A DNA stretch of 35,957 nucleotides, taken from NCBI GenBank assembly GCA_030706465.1, contig JAUZOM010000020.1, positions 1 to 35,957 on the forward strand, in the 5' to 3' direction. The translations under genes and the position numbers were made by a program. Below, in pieces: positions 2,785 to 13,091 of this stretch. The notes below the pieces were generated by a model that worked only from the letters and a program-made list of their open reading frames with translations, had not been told where the DNA came from and made no database searches. Source of the DNA: Bacteroidota bacterium. GTDB lineage: Bacteria > Bacteroidota > Bacteroidia > Bacteroidales > Paludibacteraceae. Numbering within the stretch: the stretch's first letter is position 1; each line of letters starts with the position of its first letter.

Positions 2785-3150
2785 ATGAAACTGATATTAG
2801 CAATGATACGCATCGATAAAATGGCCGCTACCAAGCTTGCCCTTTCCGATGTTGGTCTGCCTTCGTTCACGGCCATGCCGGTATTGGGACGTGGAAAAGG
2901 AAAAGGCGGATTTGAAAAGGCTGCCGGATTAGACGATGACCAAAAAGAGCTCATTATTGAGATGCCTCGTTTAAAATCCAAACGAATGATTACCCTGGTG
3001 GTTACTGATGAAAAGAAAGAACTGGCAGTTGAAACACTTATCAAAATCAATCAAACCGGGAAGAGCGGGGATGGTAAAATATTTGTACTTCCGACTAAAG
3101 ATTCTATCCGGGTTCGTACGGGTGAAAGCGGAGACATTACACTTGATTAA
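2785..3150 (+). CDS. nifI2: PII-family nitrogenase regulator NifI2 (ORF track starts at GTG 2707; ATG 2785 preferred)
   Basis: MKLILAMIRIDKMAATKLALSDVGLPSFTAMPVLGRGKGKGG is NifI2-like; the upstream ORF extension is repeat sequence. Confidence 0.92.
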   Translation: MKLILAMIRIDKMAATKLALSDVGLPSFTAMPVLGRGKGKGGFEKAAGLDDDQKELIIEMPRLKSKRMITLVVTDEKKELAVETLIKINQTGKSGDGKIFVLPTKDSIRVRTGESGDITLD

Positions 3151-3184
3151 TTAATAATTTACAATTCACAATTCATAATTATTA
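3151..3184. repeat. AT-rich inverted repeat, left arm (nifI2-nifD junction)
   Basis: ttaataatttacaattcacaattcataattatta, inverted relative to 3277-3310. Confidence 0.7.
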
Positions 3185-3276: not shown

Positions 3277-3310
3277 AATTATGAATTATAGATTATGAAT
3301 TATGCATTAA
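3277..3310. repeat. AT-rich inverted repeat, right arm (before nifD)
   Basis: aattatgaattatagattatgaattatgcattaa; repeated attatgaatta units. Confidence 0.7.
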
Positions 3311-4956: not shown

Positions 4957-4980
4957 CCCCCTGCCCCCTAAAGGGGAATT
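4954..4980 (-). repeat. Nif-junction repeat, reverse copy containing the nifD stop
   Basis: taaccccctgccccctaaaggggaatt. Confidence 0.9.
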
Positions 4981-5044
4981 AAGAAATGGTTTATTAAAAT
5001 CATTCAGATAATCAGGAATTAATAATTACAAATATAAGAACCGA

Positions 5045-5078
5045 AGTAACTTAATTCCCCTTTAGGGGTTAGGGGTTC
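5045..5078 (+). repeat. Nif-junction repeat, forward copy before nifK
   Basis: agtaacttaattcccctttaggggttaggggttc. Confidence 0.92.
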
Positions 5079-5095
5079 TTTAAAACATTAAACTT

Positions 5096-6475
5096 ATGTT
5101 ACTAAGACATACAACAGCAAAAGAAATAGACAGAAAGGCGTTGACTATCAATCCTGCTAAAACCTGTCAACCCGTAGGAGCAATGTATGCTGCATTGGGA
5201 ATCCACGGATGTTTGCCTCATAGTCACGGCTCACAAGGATGTTGCTCCTATCACCGTAGCGCCTTGTCCCGTCACTTCCGCGAACCAATTATGGCCGGTA
5301 CCAGTTCGTTTTCAGAAGGTTCTTCTGTATTTGGGGGATCTGCCAACCTTGTTTCGGCGATTGACACCATGTTCACAGTTTATAATCCTGAAGTGATTGC
5401 GGTTCACACCACTTGTCTGTCGGAAACCATTGGTGATGACCTAGTTCAAATCGTTTCTAAAGCCAATGAGGATGGATTGATTCCCCAGGGAAAACAAGTG
5501 ATTTATTGCAATACCCCCAGTTATGTGGGAACACATATCACCGGTTACTCGAATCAGGTGGCAGCTATGGTGAAGTTCTTCTCTACGGCAACTCCGAAGA
5601 AACGAAATGTCATCAACCTCGTTGCCGGTTGGATGGAGCCTTCGGATATGGGTGAGATCAAACGGTTGGCTTCTGTCATGGAAGCCCGTACCATTATGTT
5701 CCCGGATATGACCGGAGTGTTGGACACTCCGCTTGATGGACATTACAAAATGTACCCGGATGGCGGAACTACCATTGCCGACCTGAAGCTAACCGGAGAC
5801 AGTAAATTTACCTTGGGCTTTGGCCCTATGAGCACCGAGGATGCTTGTATAAAACTGGAAAACAAGTGTAAGGTAAAATTCGAAATGCTCGATATCCCCA
5901 TCGGATTCAAAGCTACCGACCGCTTCCTGATGTCGTTAAGCCGGCATGCTAACTTGCCGATACCTGACAGCTTGAGTGACGAACGTGGACGTTTAATCGA
6001 CTTGATTTCGGACAGTGCTAAATATCTTTACGGAAAACGCGTTGCACTTTGGGGCGATCCTGACACCTTGGTGCCGCTTACTGAATTCCTGGTAAGCCTG
6101 GATATGAAACCTGTATATATCGTAACGGGTACTCCAAGTAAATATTTCGAAGAAAGAATGCCCGAAATATTGAAAGATATACCTGAAGCAAAATTCATGA
6201 ATGGAGAATTGGCCGACATGTTCCGTATGCACCAGTGGATTAAACAGGAAGGGGTTGACTTGTTGATTGGTAACACGTATGGAAAATACATTGCCCGTGA
6301 CGAAAACACTCCATTTGTTCGTTTTGGATTCCCGATTGCAGACCGCCCCGGACATAACTATTTTGCAAAAGTAGGTTATAATGGTGGTGCCAATTTGGTA
6401 AAACAAATTTTAGATGCGTTCCTGGATCATATTGACAGAACTTGTCTGGAAGAAAAAGTGGAATTTCAATTGTAA
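5096..6475 (+). CDS. nifK: Nitrogenase MoFe protein beta chain NifK
   Basis: INPAKTCQPVGAMYAALGIHGCLPHSHGSQGCCSYHRSALSRHFREP; TTCLSETIGDD; follows nifD. Confidence 0.97.
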   Translation: MLLRHTTAKEIDRKALTINPAKTCQPVGAMYAALGIHGCLPHSHGSQGCCSYHRSALSRHFREPIMAGTSSFSEGSSVFGGSANLVSAIDTMFTVYNPEVIAVHTTCLSETIGDDLVQIVSKANEDGLIPQGKQVIYCNTPSYVGTHITGYSNQVAAMVKFFSTATPKKRNVINLVAGWMEPSDMGEIKRLASVMEARTIMFPDMTGVLDTPLDGHYKMYPDGGTTIADLKLTGDSKFTLGFGPMSTEDACIKLENKCKVKFEMLDIPIGFKATDRFLMSLSRHANLPIPDSLSDERGRLIDLISDSAKYLYGKRVALWGDPDTLVPLTEFLVSLDMKPVYIVTGTPSKYFEERMPEILKDIPEAKFMNGELADMFRMHQWIKQEGVDLLIGNTYGKYIARDENTPFVRFGFPIADRPGHNYFAKVGYNGGANLVKQILDAFLDHIDRTCLEEKVEFQL

Positions 6476-6498
6476 TGACCCCGAACCCCTAAAGGGAC
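6476..6498 (-). repeat. Nif-junction repeat, reverse copy adjoining the nifK stop
   Basis: tgaccccgaacccctaaagggac. Confidence 0.88.
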
Positions 6499-6586
6499 TT
6501 TAAGACGAAGTCTCTTATAAAAGTTGTTTAGTTAACACTCGTTTTTTTAGAAGGAGGTTTTGGGTTTATTTAGAAACCGGGGCTTT

Positions 6587-6614
6587 AATTTCCCTTTAGG
6601 GGATTTAGGGGTTC
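6587..6614 (+). repeat. Nif-junction repeat, forward copy before nifE
   Basis: taatttccctttaggggatttaggggtt. Confidence 0.87.
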
Positions 6615-6631
6615 TTAAACTATAGATCAAG

Positions 6632-7966
6632 ATGGCTCATATATTGGATGAAAGACAAAAACAGGTGTCGGTTGCCGGATTAAATGAACGGACTATCGAT
6701 TGTAATAAAGCCAGTTTAGCAGGGAGTGTGAGCCAGCGGGCGTGCGTATTTTGCGGTTCACGTGTGGTGCTTTACCCGATTGTTGATGCGTTACATTTAA
6801 TTCATGGACCTATTGGTTGTGCTGCATATACCTGGGATATCCGTGGGTCACTATCATCAGGTCCTGAATTACATCGATTGAGCTTCTGTACTGATTTGCA
6901 GGAACGGGATGTCATTTTCGGAGGAGAAAATAAATTATATGCCTCCATCATTGAACTGATTGACAAGCACCAACCTAAAGCCGCCTTTATCTATACCACC
7001 TGTATTGTGGGTGTTATTGGTGACGATGTGGAAAGTATATGCCGTCGGGTAGAAAAAGAAAAAAGTATTCCGGTTATCCCTGTACAGGCTCCGGGATTCC
7101 AGGGTTCCAAAAAAGACGGTTATAAAGTGGCCTGTGAGTCAATATTTAAACTGGTAGGAACAAAAAGCAAACCTTATACACCGGCCAAAAGTATCAATAT
7201 ATTAGGTGATTTCAACTTGGCAGGGGAACTTTGGATCTTATTGGAATACTACAAAAGAATGGGAGTCCATGTAAACGCCACCATAACTGGTGACGGGCGT
7301 GTAGACGATATTTGCAATGCGCATAATGCTGCCCTGAATGTGGTTCAATGTTCCGGTTCCATGAATTACCTGGCCAAGATGATGAAAGACGAATACAACA
7401 TTCCCTCCATGCGGGTTTCTTACTTCGGAATTGAAGATATGAGTGATGCACTGTATGATGTGGCCCGCTTTTTCAACGATGAGGATATGATGGAGAAAGC
7501 CCGTCAACTGGTAAAAGAAGAATTTGTCCGATTAATGCCGCAACTGGCCTGGTATAAAGAACGGTTAACCGGGAAAAAGGCGGCCATCTATGTAGGTGGA
7601 GCCTTTAAAGCCATTTCATTGGTAAAAGCATTACGGCTAATTGGTGTTCAATCGGTAATTGTCGGTTCACAAACCGGAACTACCGAAGACTATGAACTGA
7701 TTAAGCAGCTTTGCGATGAGGGAACTATTATTGTGGATGATTCAAACCCGGTGGAACTATCTCATTTTGTAAAAGAAAAGAAAGCCGACATTTTTATTGG
7801 AGGGGTAAAGGAACGCCCTATTGCCCACAAAATAGGTCTTGGTTTTTGCGATCATAACCACGAGCGCAAAGAACCCCTGGCAGGCTATGAAGGCATGATC
7901 AATTTTGCTAAAGAAATTTATGCAACAGCTATGAGTCCGGTATGGAAATTTACGAAGAACCCCTAG
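6632..7966 (+). CDS. nifE: FeMo-cofactor biosynthesis scaffold NifE
   Basis: CVFCGSRVVLYPIVDALHLIHGPIGCAAYTWDIRGSLSSG; TTCIVGVIGDD; between nifK and nifN. C-terminus KNP* is repeat-encoded. Confidence 0.95.
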   Translation: MAHILDERQKQVSVAGLNERTIDCNKASLAGSVSQRACVFCGSRVVLYPIVDALHLIHGPIGCAAYTWDIRGSLSSGPELHRLSFCTDLQERDVIFGGENKLYASIIELIDKHQPKAAFIYTTCIVGVIGDDVESICRRVEKEKSIPVIPVQAPGFQGSKKDGYKVACESIFKLVGTKSKPYTPAKSINILGDFNLAGELWILLEYYKRMGVHVNATITGDGRVDDICNAHNAALNVVQCSGSMNYLAKMMKDEYNIPSMRVSYFGIEDMSDALYDVARFFNDEDMMEKARQLVKEEFVRLMPQLAWYKERLTGKKAAIYVGGAFKAISLVKALRLIGVQSVIVGSQTGTTEDYELIKQLCDEGTIIVDDSNPVELSHFVKEKKADIFIGGVKERPIAHKIGLGFCDHNHERKEPLAGYEGMINFAKEIYATAMSPVWKFTKNP

Positions 7967-7981
7967 CCCCTAAAGGGGGAT
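7958..7981 (-). repeat. Nif-junction repeat, reverse copy containing the nifE stop
   Basis: aacccctagcccctaaagggggat; encodes NP*. Confidence 0.9.
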
Positions 7982-8051: not shown

Positions 8052-9422
8052 ATGGTTAATACAGAAATATTAGGAAACAGAACTAACTCAAGTGTTCCTT
8101 TAGGGGTTAGGAATTCTTTAGGGGGCAGGGGGTATACTTCCACGCGGAACTCCTGTAAACTTTGTGCTCCATTGGGTGCATCACTGGTATTCAAGGGCAT
8201 TGAAGGGTGTGTTCCGCTTATTCACGGGAGCCAGGGTTGTGCCACTTATATCAGGCGGTATATGATCAGCCATTATAAGGAACCTGTGGATATTGCGTCA
8301 AGTAATTTCAGTGAAGAAACCACAGTCTTTGGAGGAAGTCGGAACTTTATTACCGGGATTGATAATATTATAAAACAATATAAGCCGCAGGTGATTGGTA
8401 TAGCGTCCACCTGTTTGTCGGAAACCATTGGTGAAGACATCCCGGGACATATCCGTAACTATTGCGAAACATACAAAGGATTGGAGAAGAACCTGCCCAC
8501 CTTCATTCATGCCTCCACACCCAGTTATTGCGGAAGTCATGCGGAAGGATATTATAACACCGTATTGGCAACTATCAAGACAGTAACAGAATACGAAAAG
8601 ACGGATAATTCAATTACTATTATTCCGGGAATGGTAACTCCGGCTGATATTCGATACCTCAAGGAATTGCTCGATGATTTTGGCTTAAAGTACACGCTGT
8701 TTCCCGATTACAGCGAAACACTGGATAATGAATACACATCGGAATATCAATTAATTCCTACCGGTGGAACGCCTATTTGGAAAATAAAACGCATTGGCAA
8801 TTCAAAAGCGGTTATTGAATTTGGAAATGTTTTTAATAAAGGGGTTAGTCGTACAAAGGATGTGGGTACCATTCAGTCTGCCGGTGAATGGCTGGAATCA
8901 TCACTATACATTAAGAATTACCAAATGCCTCAACCGATTGGCATTGAAGCTTCCGACCGATTGATGGACGTATTGAAAGAACTAAGTGGCAAGGAAATAC
9001 CGGAGAAACATCGTAAAGAACGTGGAAGGTTGGTGGATGCTTATGTGGATGCCCATAAATATGTGTTCGGTAAAAAAGCATTGTTGTACGGTGAAGAAGA
9101 CTTTGTAACTGCATTGGCCGATTGGCTGCGCGAAATAGGAATAGAAACATACTTCAAAAAAGGAGCAGATTTTGAAACGTTACGTGAAGAAGCAGAAAAC
9201 TTTAAACCGGACCTTTTAATAGGAAACAGCAAAGGATACTATATCGCACGGGAACGTAAGATTCCACTGGTTCGCTTAGGATTTCCCATTCATGATCGGT
9301 TTGGGGCTTCCAGGATTCATCAGATTGGCTATCGGGGGACACAAGAACTTTTTGACCTAGTGGTGAATGCATTGATTGAGTATAAACAGGAAAACTCACC
9401 GATAGGTTATAAATATCTATAA
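8052..9422 (+). CDS. nifN: FeMo-cofactor biosynthesis scaffold NifN (ATG 8052; the track's 8046 is TTG)
   Basis: SCKLCAPLGASLVFKGIEGCVPLIHGSQGCATYIRRY; STCLSETIGEDIPG; N-terminal repeat-derived stretch NSSVPLGVRNSLGGRG. Confidence 0.93.
   Translation: MVNTEILGNRTNSSVPLGVRNSLGGRGYTSTRNSCKLCAPLGASLVFKGIEGCVPLIHGSQGCATYIRRYMISHYKEPVDIASSNFSEETTVFGGSRNFITGIDNIIKQYKPQVIGIASTCLSETIGEDIPGHIRNYCETYKGLEKNLPTFIHASTPSYCGSHAEGYYNTVLATIKTVTEYEKTDNSITIIPGMVTPADIRYLKELLDDFGLKYTLFPDYSETLDNEYTSEYQLIPTGGTPIWKIKRIGNSKAVIEFGNVFNKGVSRTKDVGTIQSAGEWLESSLYIKNYQMPQPIGIEASDRLMDVLKELSGKEIPEKHRKERGRLVDAYVDAHKYVFGKKALLYGEEDFVTALADWLREIGIETYFKKGADFETLREEAENFKPDLLIGNSKGYYIARERKIPLVRLGFPIHDRFGASRIHQIGYRGTQELFDLVVNALIEYKQENSPIGYKYL
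8082..8133 (+). repeat. Nif-junction repeat, two abutting forward copies inside the nifN ORF
   Basis: actaactcaagtgttcctttaggggttag + gaattctttagggggcagggggt; reads TNSSVPLGVRNSLGGRG. Confidence 0.85.
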
Positions 9423-9446
9423 TACCCCTAACCCCTAAAGGGGAAC
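9423..9446 (-). repeat. Nif-junction repeat, reverse copy adjoining the nifN stop
   Basis: tacccctaacccctaaaggggaac. Confidence 0.92.
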
Positions 9447-9482
9447 AGAAAATATTACTAACGATTTTTAAATGATTAGAGT

Positions 9483-10793
9483 ATGAGTAATTTAGAAAAT
9501 ACAGGAGACAAAAGTAACTCCAGTTCCCCTTTAGGGGTTAGGGGTTCACATCCTTGTTTCAATGAGGAAGCAAGACATACCAATGCACGTGTTCACCTGC
9601 CTGTAGCTCCAAAATGCAATATACAGTGTAATTATTGCAATCGTAAATACGACTGCGTAAATGAAAGCCGCCCGGGTGTTACTTCTTCAGTATTGGCACC
9701 CTTTCAGGCTGTCGATTATCTGAAAGACTTGAATGGCCGGATAGAGAATCTGGCGGTCATCGGTATTGCCGGTCCGGGCGATCCGTTTGCCAATGCGGAA
9801 GAAACACTGGAAACCATGCGCCGCGTGAATGCAGAATTCCCGTATAAGATTTTCTGCCTTTCCACCAATGGACTTGAGTTGGAACCCTATATTGACGAAA
9901 TTGCCGATTTAGGCGTTTCACATGTCACCCTGACCATTAATGCCATCGATCCGACTATAACAGCCAAAATTTATAAATGGGTCCGGTATAATAAACATAT
10001 TTATCGGGGGGAAGAAGGTGCTGCCATTTTATTGGAACGCCAACTGGCCTGTATCCCGAAACTGAAGTCCAGGGGAATTACCGTAAAAATTAACTCCATT
10101 ATCATACCGGGAGTAAATGAGGATCATATTCCCGAAGTAGCTCGTGTATGTGCAGAGCTGGGAGCTGATGTCATAAACTGCATTCCCCTGATTCCAACAG
10201 CAGAAACACCTTTTGAAGTTGTTCCTAAACCGGATGCGAAAATGATATTCAGGGTTCGCACCTTATCATCCAATTACTTGAAGATTATGAGCCATTGTGC
10301 TCGCTGTCGTGCTGATGCGGCCGGCTTATTGGGCCAGGATCTCAGTGAAACCCATGCATTGCTGAAAGAGTATTCCTCCCGTGCTGAAGTTATGGAAACC
10401 AATGAAAGGCCTTATGTGGCTGTCGGATCAAATGAAGGATTATTAGTCAATCTGCATCTGGGCGAAGCACTCAGCTTATATATCTTTCAACAAAGTCCGA
10501 AAGGGTTTAAACTGGTGGAAATACGTCATACGCCTCCCAAAGGAAAAGGCGACGAACGTTGGCTTGAATTGGCCCGTTCATTAAAAGATTGCCGTGCCTT
10601 GTTGGTGAGCGGGGTGGGTGAAAATCCGAAAGCTATGCTTAAAGGATGCGGTATCCATGTGGTGGAAATGACCGGGTTGATCGATGAAGGATTGGAAGGC
10701 ATTTACAACAATAAAGTAATCCGTTCCATGGCGAAACCCGATGCTTTCAAATGTGGAAGTGGCTGTAAAGGGACAGCACAGGGTTGTGGATAA
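9483..10793 (+). CDS. nifB: FeMo-cofactor biosynthesis radical SAM protein NifB with C-terminal NifX/NafY-like domain
   Basis: HPCFNEEARHTNARVHLPVAPKCNIQCNYCNRKYDCVNESRPGV (CxxxCxxC); C-terminal LVNLHLGEALSLYIFQ...VSGVGENPKAMLKGCGIHVVEM is NifX-like. Confidence 0.96.
   Translation: MSNLENTGDKSNSSSPLGVRGSHPCFNEEARHTNARVHLPVAPKCNIQCNYCNRKYDCVNESRPGVTSSVLAPFQAVDYLKDLNGRIENLAVIGIAGPGDPFANAEETLETMRRVNAEFPYKIFCLSTNGLELEPYIDEIADLGVSHVTLTINAIDPTITAKIYKWVRYNKHIYRGEEGAAILLERQLACIPKLKSRGITVKINSIIIPGVNEDHIPEVARVCAELGADVINCIPLIPTAETPFEVVPKPDAKMIFRVRTLSSNYLKIMSHCARCRADAAGLLGQDLSETHALLKEYSSRAEVMETNERPYVAVGSNEGLLVNLHLGEALSLYIFQQSPKGFKLVEIRHTPPKGKGDERWLELARSLKDCRALLVSGVGENPKAMLKGCGIHVVEMTGLIDEGLEGIYNNKVIRSMAKPDAFKCGSGCKGTAQGCG
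9512..9546 (+). repeat. Nif-junction repeat, forward copy inside the nifB ORF
   Basis: agtaactccagttcccctttaggggttaggggttc; reads SNSSSPLGVRGS. Confidence 0.92.
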
Positions 10794-10797
10794 GAGA

Positions 10798-10823
10798 CTA
10801 CCCCTACCCCCTAAAGGGGAATT
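10798..10823 (-). repeat. Nif-junction repeat, reverse copy after nifB
   Basis: ctacccctaccccctaaaggggaatt. Confidence 0.9.
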
Positions 10824-10963: not shown

Positions 10964-10990
10964 AAAATCCCCTCTAGGGGATAGGGGGTC
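10964..10990 (+). repeat. Nif-junction repeat, forward copy before the ferredoxin gene
   Basis: aaaatcccctctaggggatagggggtc; ATG 7 nt downstream. Confidence 0.88.
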
Positions 10991-10997
10991 ATTCAGT

Positions 10998-11306
10998 ATG
11001 AAAAAACCTCAGTATCACATTTTGGTTTGTAACTCGTACCGGGTTGCAGGCGATGCACAAGGTGCATGTAACAAGAAGGGGGCAGCCGGACTGCTTCAGT
11101 ATATTTCGGAAGAAGCTGCCGATCGTGGGCTGGACGTGGCTGTCAGTTCTACGGCCTGTTTGAATGTCTGCTCGCAAGGACCTGCCATGGTTATTCACCC
11201 CAATAATTTCTGGTATGGCGGAGTTGACTCGGAAGCAGCCATTGATGAAGTGCTTGATGCTCTCGAAAACGACGAAGCTTGCGCCAAATATCTCATTAGC
11301 GATTAA
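10998..11306 (+). CDS. Thioredoxin-like [2Fe-2S] ferredoxin
   Basis: PQYHILVCNSYRVAGDAQGACNKKG...STACLNVCSQGPAMVIHPNNFWYGGV resembles Clostridium/Azotobacter thioredoxin-like 2Fe-2S ferredoxins; four Cys (C-x12-C...C-x3-C). Confidence 0.9.
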   Translation: MKKPQYHILVCNSYRVAGDAQGACNKKGAAGLLQYISEEAADRGLDVAVSSTACLNVCSQGPAMVIHPNNFWYGGVDSEAAIDEVLDALENDEACAKYLISD

Positions 11307-11453
11307 ATTACCGGTAACATTCATAAGAGTCATAAAAGCTGACAAGGATGTAGTAAATAATTGAACGATAGCTTCAAACTTCAGACTTTCATAATTTTAA
11401 AAATTATCTTAGTTAATCAGTTTTTATGACTGCTTATAAACTATCCCAACTGT

Positions 11454-12596: not shown

Positions 12597-12629
12597 ATGT
12601 AAATGATATTACATTCCCACTCATTAATT

Positions 12630-13091
12630 ATGGAAAGAACGCTTGTTATTATCAAACCCGGTGCAATAAAAAGAGATTTAATTGGTGAAATTATTCATCG
12701 CTTCGAACGGAAAGGGCTGCAACTTTGTGGCATTAAAATGATGAAACTGAATGATGAAATTCTGGATGAACATTACGAACATTTAAAAGGGAAACCTTTT
12801 TTTCAACGGATTAAAGACTCAATGATGAAAACACCGGTCGTGGTATGTTGTTGGAAAAGCGTTGATTGCGTTCGCATAGTCCATGATATGGCAGGTTGTA
12901 CAAATGGCCGTCAGGCAGCTATGGGAACCATCCGGGGCGATTATAGCGTCAGTGTGCAGGAAAATATTGTCCATACTTCGGATACGGTCGAAAATGCCAA
13001 TATTGAGATTGCCCGTTTTTTCAGGGAAGAAGAAATTTTCGAGTTTAACCAACTAAGTCCTACCGTTTTGTATGCTGAGGATGAATTTTAA
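12630..13091 (+). CDS. ndk: Nucleoside diphosphate kinase family protein
   Basis: MERTLVIIKPGAIKRDLIGEIIHRFERKGLQLCGIKMM; TIRGDYSVSVQENIVHTSD with the active-site His. ATG 12630 preferred over 12603. Confidence 0.92.
   Translation: MERTLVIIKPGAIKRDLIGEIIHRFERKGLQLCGIKMMKLNDEILDEHYEHLKGKPFFQRIKDSMMKTPVVVCCWKSVDCVRIVHDMAGCTNGRQAAMGTIRGDYSVSVQENIVHTSDTVENANIEIARFFREEEIFEFNQLSPTVLYAEDEF

Follow-up and report, generated by a model that had tools for sequence, protein, structure and literature searches.

The window analysed here, a stretch of 35,957 nucleotides, carries a Paludibacter-type nif cluster with the gene order modB-modC, nifH-I1-I2-D-K-E-N-B-ferredoxin-nifV, whose NifK protein is 96% identical to that of the closest named record, Paludibacter sp. 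STB_57 (L041). Inverted repeats are found at nine of the nine nif junctions of the window; at two of these, nifI2|nifD and ferredoxin|nifV, the repeats belong to other families than the C-rich type found elsewhere in the cluster. The features identified at the junctions are as follows.

212-234, + strand: left arm of modB|modC, which gives the modB stop codon TAG (217-219).
382-404, + strand: right arm of modB|modC, within the reading frame of modC.
2182-2206, + strand: left arm of nifH|nifI1.
2262-2284, + strand: first right-type arm of nifH|nifI1.
2311-2335, + strand: second right arm of nifH|nifI1; the nifI1 ATG is at 2351.
2674-2696, + strand: left arm of nifI1|nifI2, immediately 3' of the nifI1 stop codon.
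2747-2769, + strand: right arm of nifI1|nifI2; the nifI2 ATG is at 2785.
3147-3180, + strand: left arm of an AT-rich inverted repeat (other family) at nifI2|nifD.
3277-3310, + strand: right arm of the AT-rich inverted repeat (other family) at nifI2|nifD.
4957-4983, + strand: left arm of nifD|nifK.
5050-5076, + strand: right arm of nifD|nifK; the nifK ATG is at 5096.
6478-6504, + strand: left arm of nifK|nifE.
6586-6613, + strand: right arm of nifK|nifE; the nifE ATG is at 6632.
7959-7980, + strand: left arm of nifE|nifN, which gives the nifE stop codon TAG (7964-7966).
9424-9446, + strand: left arm of nifN|nifB, ACCCCTAACCCCTAAAGGGGAAC, from the inverted-repeat search.
9523-9545, + strand: right arm of nifN|nifB, which reads as part of ...SSSPLGVRG in the nifB frame.
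10800-10823, + strand: left arm of nifB|ferredoxin.
10967-10988, + strand: right arm of nifB|ferredoxin; the ferredoxin ATG is at 10998.
11326-11434, + strand: ferredoxin|nifV junction with a further inverted-repeat family (agtcataaaa ... tttttatgact).

Directly 3' of nifV, an open reading frame at 12603-13091 has MERTLVIIKPGAIKRDLIGE near its start and looks by eye like a nucleoside-diphosphate kinase.

An initial annotation of this DNA had described reverse-complementary arms of about 22 bp at nifN|nifB, some 78 nt apart, that enclose the nifB start codon. The two arms are complementary at 23 of 23 positions and lie 76 nt apart, and the nifB ATG at position 9483 falls within the loop. The same organization was claimed for modB|modC and is present there: the left arm contains the modB stop codon, and the loop holds the modC ATG (342). 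The nifE|nifN junction follows this plan too, its left arm containing the nifE stop codon and its loop the nifN ATG (8052), except for a degenerate right arm. The start codons of nifI1, nifI2, nifK, nifE and the ferredoxin gene lie about 9-19 nt 3' of the right arm, in good agreement with the 7-20 nt given in the annotation. At this spacing, perfect inverted repeats reach 23 bp in the window but no more than 15 bp in 60 dinucleotide shuffles, and the core of the arms, CCCCTAAAGGGG, has 30 matches in the window at up to two mismatches, against 3.0 expected.

RNA folding of the junctions, which the annotation had suggested as a check, strongly predicts large hairpins, some of them with start codons in their loops. 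The nifN|nifB junction (9419-9550) has a predicted fold of -54.4 kcal/mol (z -7.4), and other C-rich junctions gave z-scores of -5.5, -4.3, -3.4 and -3.2. The predicted fold of a lone arm is weak, at -7.2 kcal/mol, and the long stem should therefore dominate. Because they are GC-rich stems that follow stop codons, these structures might be read as intrinsic terminators or attenuators at each junction; however, the loop of about 76 nt splits the stem, the left hairpin has no U-run, and the structures separate genes that presumably share an operon, some of them enclosing the following start codon; we give this explanation hardly any credence.

The arms are not peculiar to the nif cluster. The exact core occurs 79 times in the genome to which the window belongs, 11 times in about 11 kb of the window and 68 times in the other ~4.33 Mb, and 111 times in a single-contig relative of 3,685,504 bp (G015). 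Twenty Paludibacter genomes contain strict arm pairs, and none turned up in 16 genomes representing other families in the order; a 20-nt right arm was absent from 298 other Bacteroidota genomes sampled. An exact-pattern search of 80 genomes of the phylum for a related-looking repeat (CCTCCTTTGGAGGGG...) gave no match, which we do not take to indicate how widely that family occurs. Genome-wide statistics were drawn from most of the G015 matches listed (100 of 111) together with sampled regions of other genomes. Adjacent cores in two genomes are arranged as inward pairs in 63 cases and in other orders in 10, the median spacer being 70 nt in one genome and 79 nt in the other, and one genome (G013) holds five copies of a nearly identical 70-mer on different contigs with only short flanks in common.

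The placement of these elements relative to genes is biased. Among 62 classifiable elements, 50 lie between co-directional genes, five between convergent and six between divergent genes, and one is inside an open reading frame. Most begin between -24 and +12 nt relative to the upstream stop codon, and in 11 of the 50 co-directional cases the downstream start codon is within the element. Read 5' to 3', the left arm contains stop codons in two of its three frames (CCC TAA / CCC TAG), and in about ten of 50 sampled cases, roughly a fifth, it provides the stop codon of the upstream gene. Taken together, these observations make it probable that each arm marks one end of a REPIN-like palindromic element, dispersed within the genus and confined to it: an inverted pair of ACCCCTAACCCCTAAAGGGG, usually 50-95 nt apart, which captures start codons.

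REPINs, or REP doublets, are mobilised by RAYT (TnpA-REP) transposases (PMC3116915), and the element described here resembles them in being an over-represented inverted doublet of short palindromes with a short, variable spacer of similar size, in its dispersed and mostly extragenic copies, of which a subset is coding, and in its predicted hairpin. Inward-facing pairs make up 63 of the 73 adjacent pairs here, and inverted doublets 93% of those formed by the REPs of P. fluorescens (PMC3116915). Unlike REPINs, the arms have no cognate RAYT beside them among the 23 Y1 transposase genes that we inspected, a subset of those in the genus: none of the 23 is flanked by this arm on both sides, their surroundings contain other hairpins or none, and several have flanking inverted repeats of their own that are unlike this arm. 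In L133, the Y1 transposase gene at 5402-5848, which encodes 148 aa with a YIKNQREHH motif, lies between 24-nt inverted repeats that contain CCCCGAAGGGG. Among the REP systems mobilised by RAYT, a Bacteroidetes subclass, 2.6, is described as having 'atypical secondary structures' (PMC6006769). Movement of the element as a unit by a single-strand mechanism is what its REPIN-like anatomy would lead us to infer.

Both members of the perfect pair at nifN|nifB belong to one subtype, and the adjacent junctions combine mixed subtypes. In a set of 63 elements, identity between the inner 12 nt of the arms was 0.382, and permuting the partners gave 0.385; for the outer 8 nt, identity was only slightly higher than under permutation (z 2.1). 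The inner flanks thus match no better than permuted ones, which argues against maintenance of the long stem outside the self-palindromic core; no compensatory changes were seen between the two sides of the hairpin, and in this the arms are unlike published Pseudomonas REPINs. A switch between local and long-range folds had been put forward in the initial annotation. Within-arm covariation (outer trinucleotide against inner flank, with a bulge) is absent as well, with a z-score of -0.3, so that coupled changes outside the core are lacking for both folds, and in some genes the open reading frame described below outlasts the inverted repeat; we find no support for such a switch.

The same nif junctions in relatives (L041, L042, L044, L046, L048, L051-L054, L092 and others) vary in content. 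They hold C-rich subtypes, AT-rich repeats (taattcataatt...), ttgatt arrays, inverted repeats of the gcccttcgggc type or the ctctccttcggagag type, or nothing, and some relatives have gaps of only 14-31 nt without an inverted repeat. Significant inverted repeats were present at 61 of 97 nif junctions of the genus that are at least 60 nt long (nine-junction table), compared with 7 of 96 intragenic controls, and a C-rich core at only 36 of the 97. Because orthologous junctions contain unrelated repeats or none, the particular sequence is not conserved, in contrast to what a conserved nif regulatory RNA would require, though many junctions hold some inverted repeat. The nif junctions of Bacteroides luti are mostly 18-37 nt long and without repeats. 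Very long inverted repeats made of tandem ttgatt/aatcaac or tgatgtgatg-type units occur at nifE|nifN in L041 and ferredoxin|nifV in L044. A sigma-54-like promoter sequence, AATGGCACGATAAATGA, lies 5' of nifH at 1273-1290 of the window; ten relatives (L041, L042, L044, L045, L046, L050, L051, L056, L105, L134) have a copy between nifK and nifE, 5' of nifE, and the window has no copy at nifE and a C-rich element in its short nifK|nifE junction instead.

These data bear on the proposal of the initial annotation that the hairpins are selected as intercistronic mRNA structures, which would direct the processing or stability of parts of the nif mRNA and determine Nif stoichiometry. The strong predicted folds, the inverted repeats of several unrelated families at all nine junctions of the window and at many junctions across the genus, the 2.9-fold enrichment of the C-rich core in nif of relatives above its flanks (p=2e-4), and the precedent of Anabaena variabilis, where stem-loops and transcript stability have both been linked to nif transcript processing (PMC4284476), all favor such a role. 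However, the same elements are found in unrelated operons throughout the genome and the genus, the occupancy of junctions turns over among close relatives, the two arms match no better than permuted partners, several junctions, including those of some genes with element-derived starts, lack an inverted repeat, as most of those in B. luti do, and we consider this explanation unlikely. The hairpins near nif gene starts resemble those of A. variabilis, but the latter are conserved at particular processing sites (PMC4284476), while the junction sequences here turn over and are common to unrelated operons. An effect of the junction hairpins on mRNA, including a selected role at some junctions, is possible; a role in Nif stoichiometry is not supported. 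Long co-directional operons offer many acceptable sites for the element, and the unusually dense occupation of nif is not accounted for by our findings.

The right arm, TCC CCT TTA GGG GTT AGG GG, is open in one frame, which encodes SPLGVRG, and has TAG in the other two. A loop ATG that is in the SPLGVRG frame usually lies about 14 codons 5' of the right arm. For nifB, nifN and modC of the window the loop ATG is in the frame of the right arm, the right arms lie within the open reading frames, and the native start region is absent, giving three element-derived starts and leaders:

342-404, + strand: element-derived start and leader of ModC, MESKSINIDCSNSNSPLGVGG.
8052-8132, + strand: element-derived start and leader of NifN, MVNTEILGNRTNSSVPLGVRNSLGGRG, which spans the degenerate right arms at 8094-8115 and 8116-8132.
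9483-9545, + strand: element-derived start and leader of NifB, MSNLENTGDKSNSSSPLGVRG; the native MEMTEERKQA-type start is absent.

The annotation was right about the position of the start codon in the loop, while its regulatory reading is not supported: the element itself provides the start codon and a leader that would be translated. Comparison with relatives illustrates the substitution: their NifB begins MEMTEERKQA-HPCF, whereas that of the window reads MSNLENTGDKSNSSSPLGVRGS-HPCF and that of L042 MKISTNIEDKSSLNSPLGVRGLA-HPCF. The usual start of NifV is M[NKA]-PYFID, and four relatives (L042, L053, L054, L049) have an element leader directly before PYFID. G015 has a leader on nifE. In some genes the leader is present with no significant inverted repeat left (nifV in L053 and L054; nifN in L048, L049 and L054).

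Several variants of this organization were observed. Where coding arms stand in tandem (L023 at 1578 and 2119, L020, L041 at 5119), the SPLGV[RG]G unit is present two or three times in the leader, and an arm encoding SPLGAEG lies inside an ABC ATPase (L005, 650-1621, - strand), 36 codons from the start and between conserved segments. A second type of palindrome, encoding SPSFGGVGGG or FPSFGGVRGG, is found at the N-terminus of NifN in L053 and upstream of nifB in L041; its likewise N-terminal location suggests that leaders may come from more than one repeat family. No mention of SPLGVRG or SPLGVGG was found in the literature searched.

We searched 48 genomes of the genus with the pattern ATG-N24-39-arm and obtained matches in 37. 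Of the 141 distinct sequences among the matches listed, 74 have the ATG in the SPLG frame, and 58 of these lack a stop codon between ATG and arm; for the 67 whose ATG is in another frame, the number is 20 (p=6e-9). A spacing of 39 nt, the upper limit searched, was found in 25 sequences among the matches listed, with the consensus M-N-K-K-K-N-I-x-D-[KE]-[ST]-N-F-N. In the sample of 63 elements, a loop ATG co-occurs with an open frame into an open reading frame of at least 100 aa (p=1e-5). Twenty places were picked as leader-like, and their outcome is for this reason no unbiased rate: in 18 the frame stays open for at least 200 aa, in most of them visibly reaching a conserved protein, another is truncated where the region ends, and the last meets a stop codon after 36 aa. 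A left-arm core is present within 200 nt upstream in 17 of the 20.

The proteins that carry these leaders are functionally diverse. Pfam analysis of ten places identified TrpA, IGPS (TrpC), class-I glutamine amidotransferase, MacB/FtsX, a homocitrate-synthase-type (NifV-type) protein, MnmE, pyridine-nucleotide oxidoreductase with Fe-S domains, a Glu racemase-type protein, DUF3826 and an EF-Tu-type GTPase; an earlier set of leaders had included a class-III aminotransferase (HemL-like), PALP (TrpB-like), KdpC and a nitrogenase-type protein (NifE). The conserved domain often starts 3-16 residues past the arm. One peptide predicted from the leader on TrpC is MNNDKNIQDNSNSNSPLGVRG. Genes of the trpA, trpC, trpB and class-I glutamine amidotransferase types with a leader were seen in several genomes (L231, L232, L233, L235, L240, L250, L144).

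Open reading is needed in just one of three frames, and the leaders could in principle be spurious extensions of open reading frames next to a neutral extragenic repeat, with the true starts further downstream; most N-terminal REPs of several species were judged non-coding for this reason (PMC3733652). An ATG shortly 3' of the arm could act as the start in L245 and L247 and in the modC and nifE fusions. However, the frame and stop-codon bias extends over 48 genomes, native starts are absent, the next possible start codons lie deep in conserved domains (49 residues 3' of the arm in nifB and 19 in nifN of the window), and the leader reading frame is kept despite a degenerate palindrome, as in nifV of L054; spurious extension is therefore very improbable as a general explanation.

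We propose that start capture by the element proceeds in steps. An element would be inserted or copied into the gap that separates a stop codon from the initiation region of the following gene and tolerated there, and copies would come to lie mostly between co-directional genes, starting just past the stop codon of the first and reaching close to, or across, the start codon of the second. If the loop offers an AUG in frame with the open reading of the right arm, translation could begin there instead, which would add a leader of about 21 residues; subsequent loss of the native AUG would lock the leader reading frame in, after which the palindrome, the partner arm and the hairpin may decay. While the anatomy, dispersal, position and frame bias, fusion to conserved domains and absence of native starts can be read directly from the sequences, we infer from them that the leaders are actually translated and that insertion preceded start capture and decay. 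The Asn, Lys, Ser and acidic content of the leader suggests a flexible, tolerated tail. Overall, the putatively mobile Paludibacter palindrome probably acts as a portable stop-hairpin-start cassette, which would have placed one leader of about 21 residues (MNKKKNIxD[KE][ST]NFN-SPLGVRG) on dozens of proteins of housekeeping and nitrogen fixation that are otherwise unrelated.

This behavior has partial parallels in other repeats. An in-frame start codon, a coding arm and frequent overlap with gene ends distinguish the element from REPINs. The GTAG/CGTC REPs lie mostly between unidirectional and convergent genes and, like our element, can provide stop codons and overlap the 5' ends of open reading frames; unlike it, those at N-termini are mostly judged non-coding, and a shared leader with a fixed start is not described in the portions of that report we draw on (PMC3733652). 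As in the Rickettsia palindromic elements (RPE; PMC3733652), a palindromic repeat would be translated in frame within otherwise normal protein genes. Compared with RPE by description only, fusion here is almost always N-terminal, with the element's own start at a roughly fixed position, and the host is a free-living Bacteroidales genus. 

The short palindromic repeats of bacteria are usually treated as extragenic. In this genus, one repeat family would repeatedly have taken over translation initiation in many lineages, and the native starts of central enzymes of tryptophan synthesis and nitrogenase maturation, and of MnmE, would have been replaced with a common leader. Such cases offer a natural experiment on the fixation of a repeat, since its removal would be harmful once the native start is lost. 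The annotation of start codons near such repeats calls for care, and the findings bear on how nif operons may tolerate, or use, repeats at every junction.
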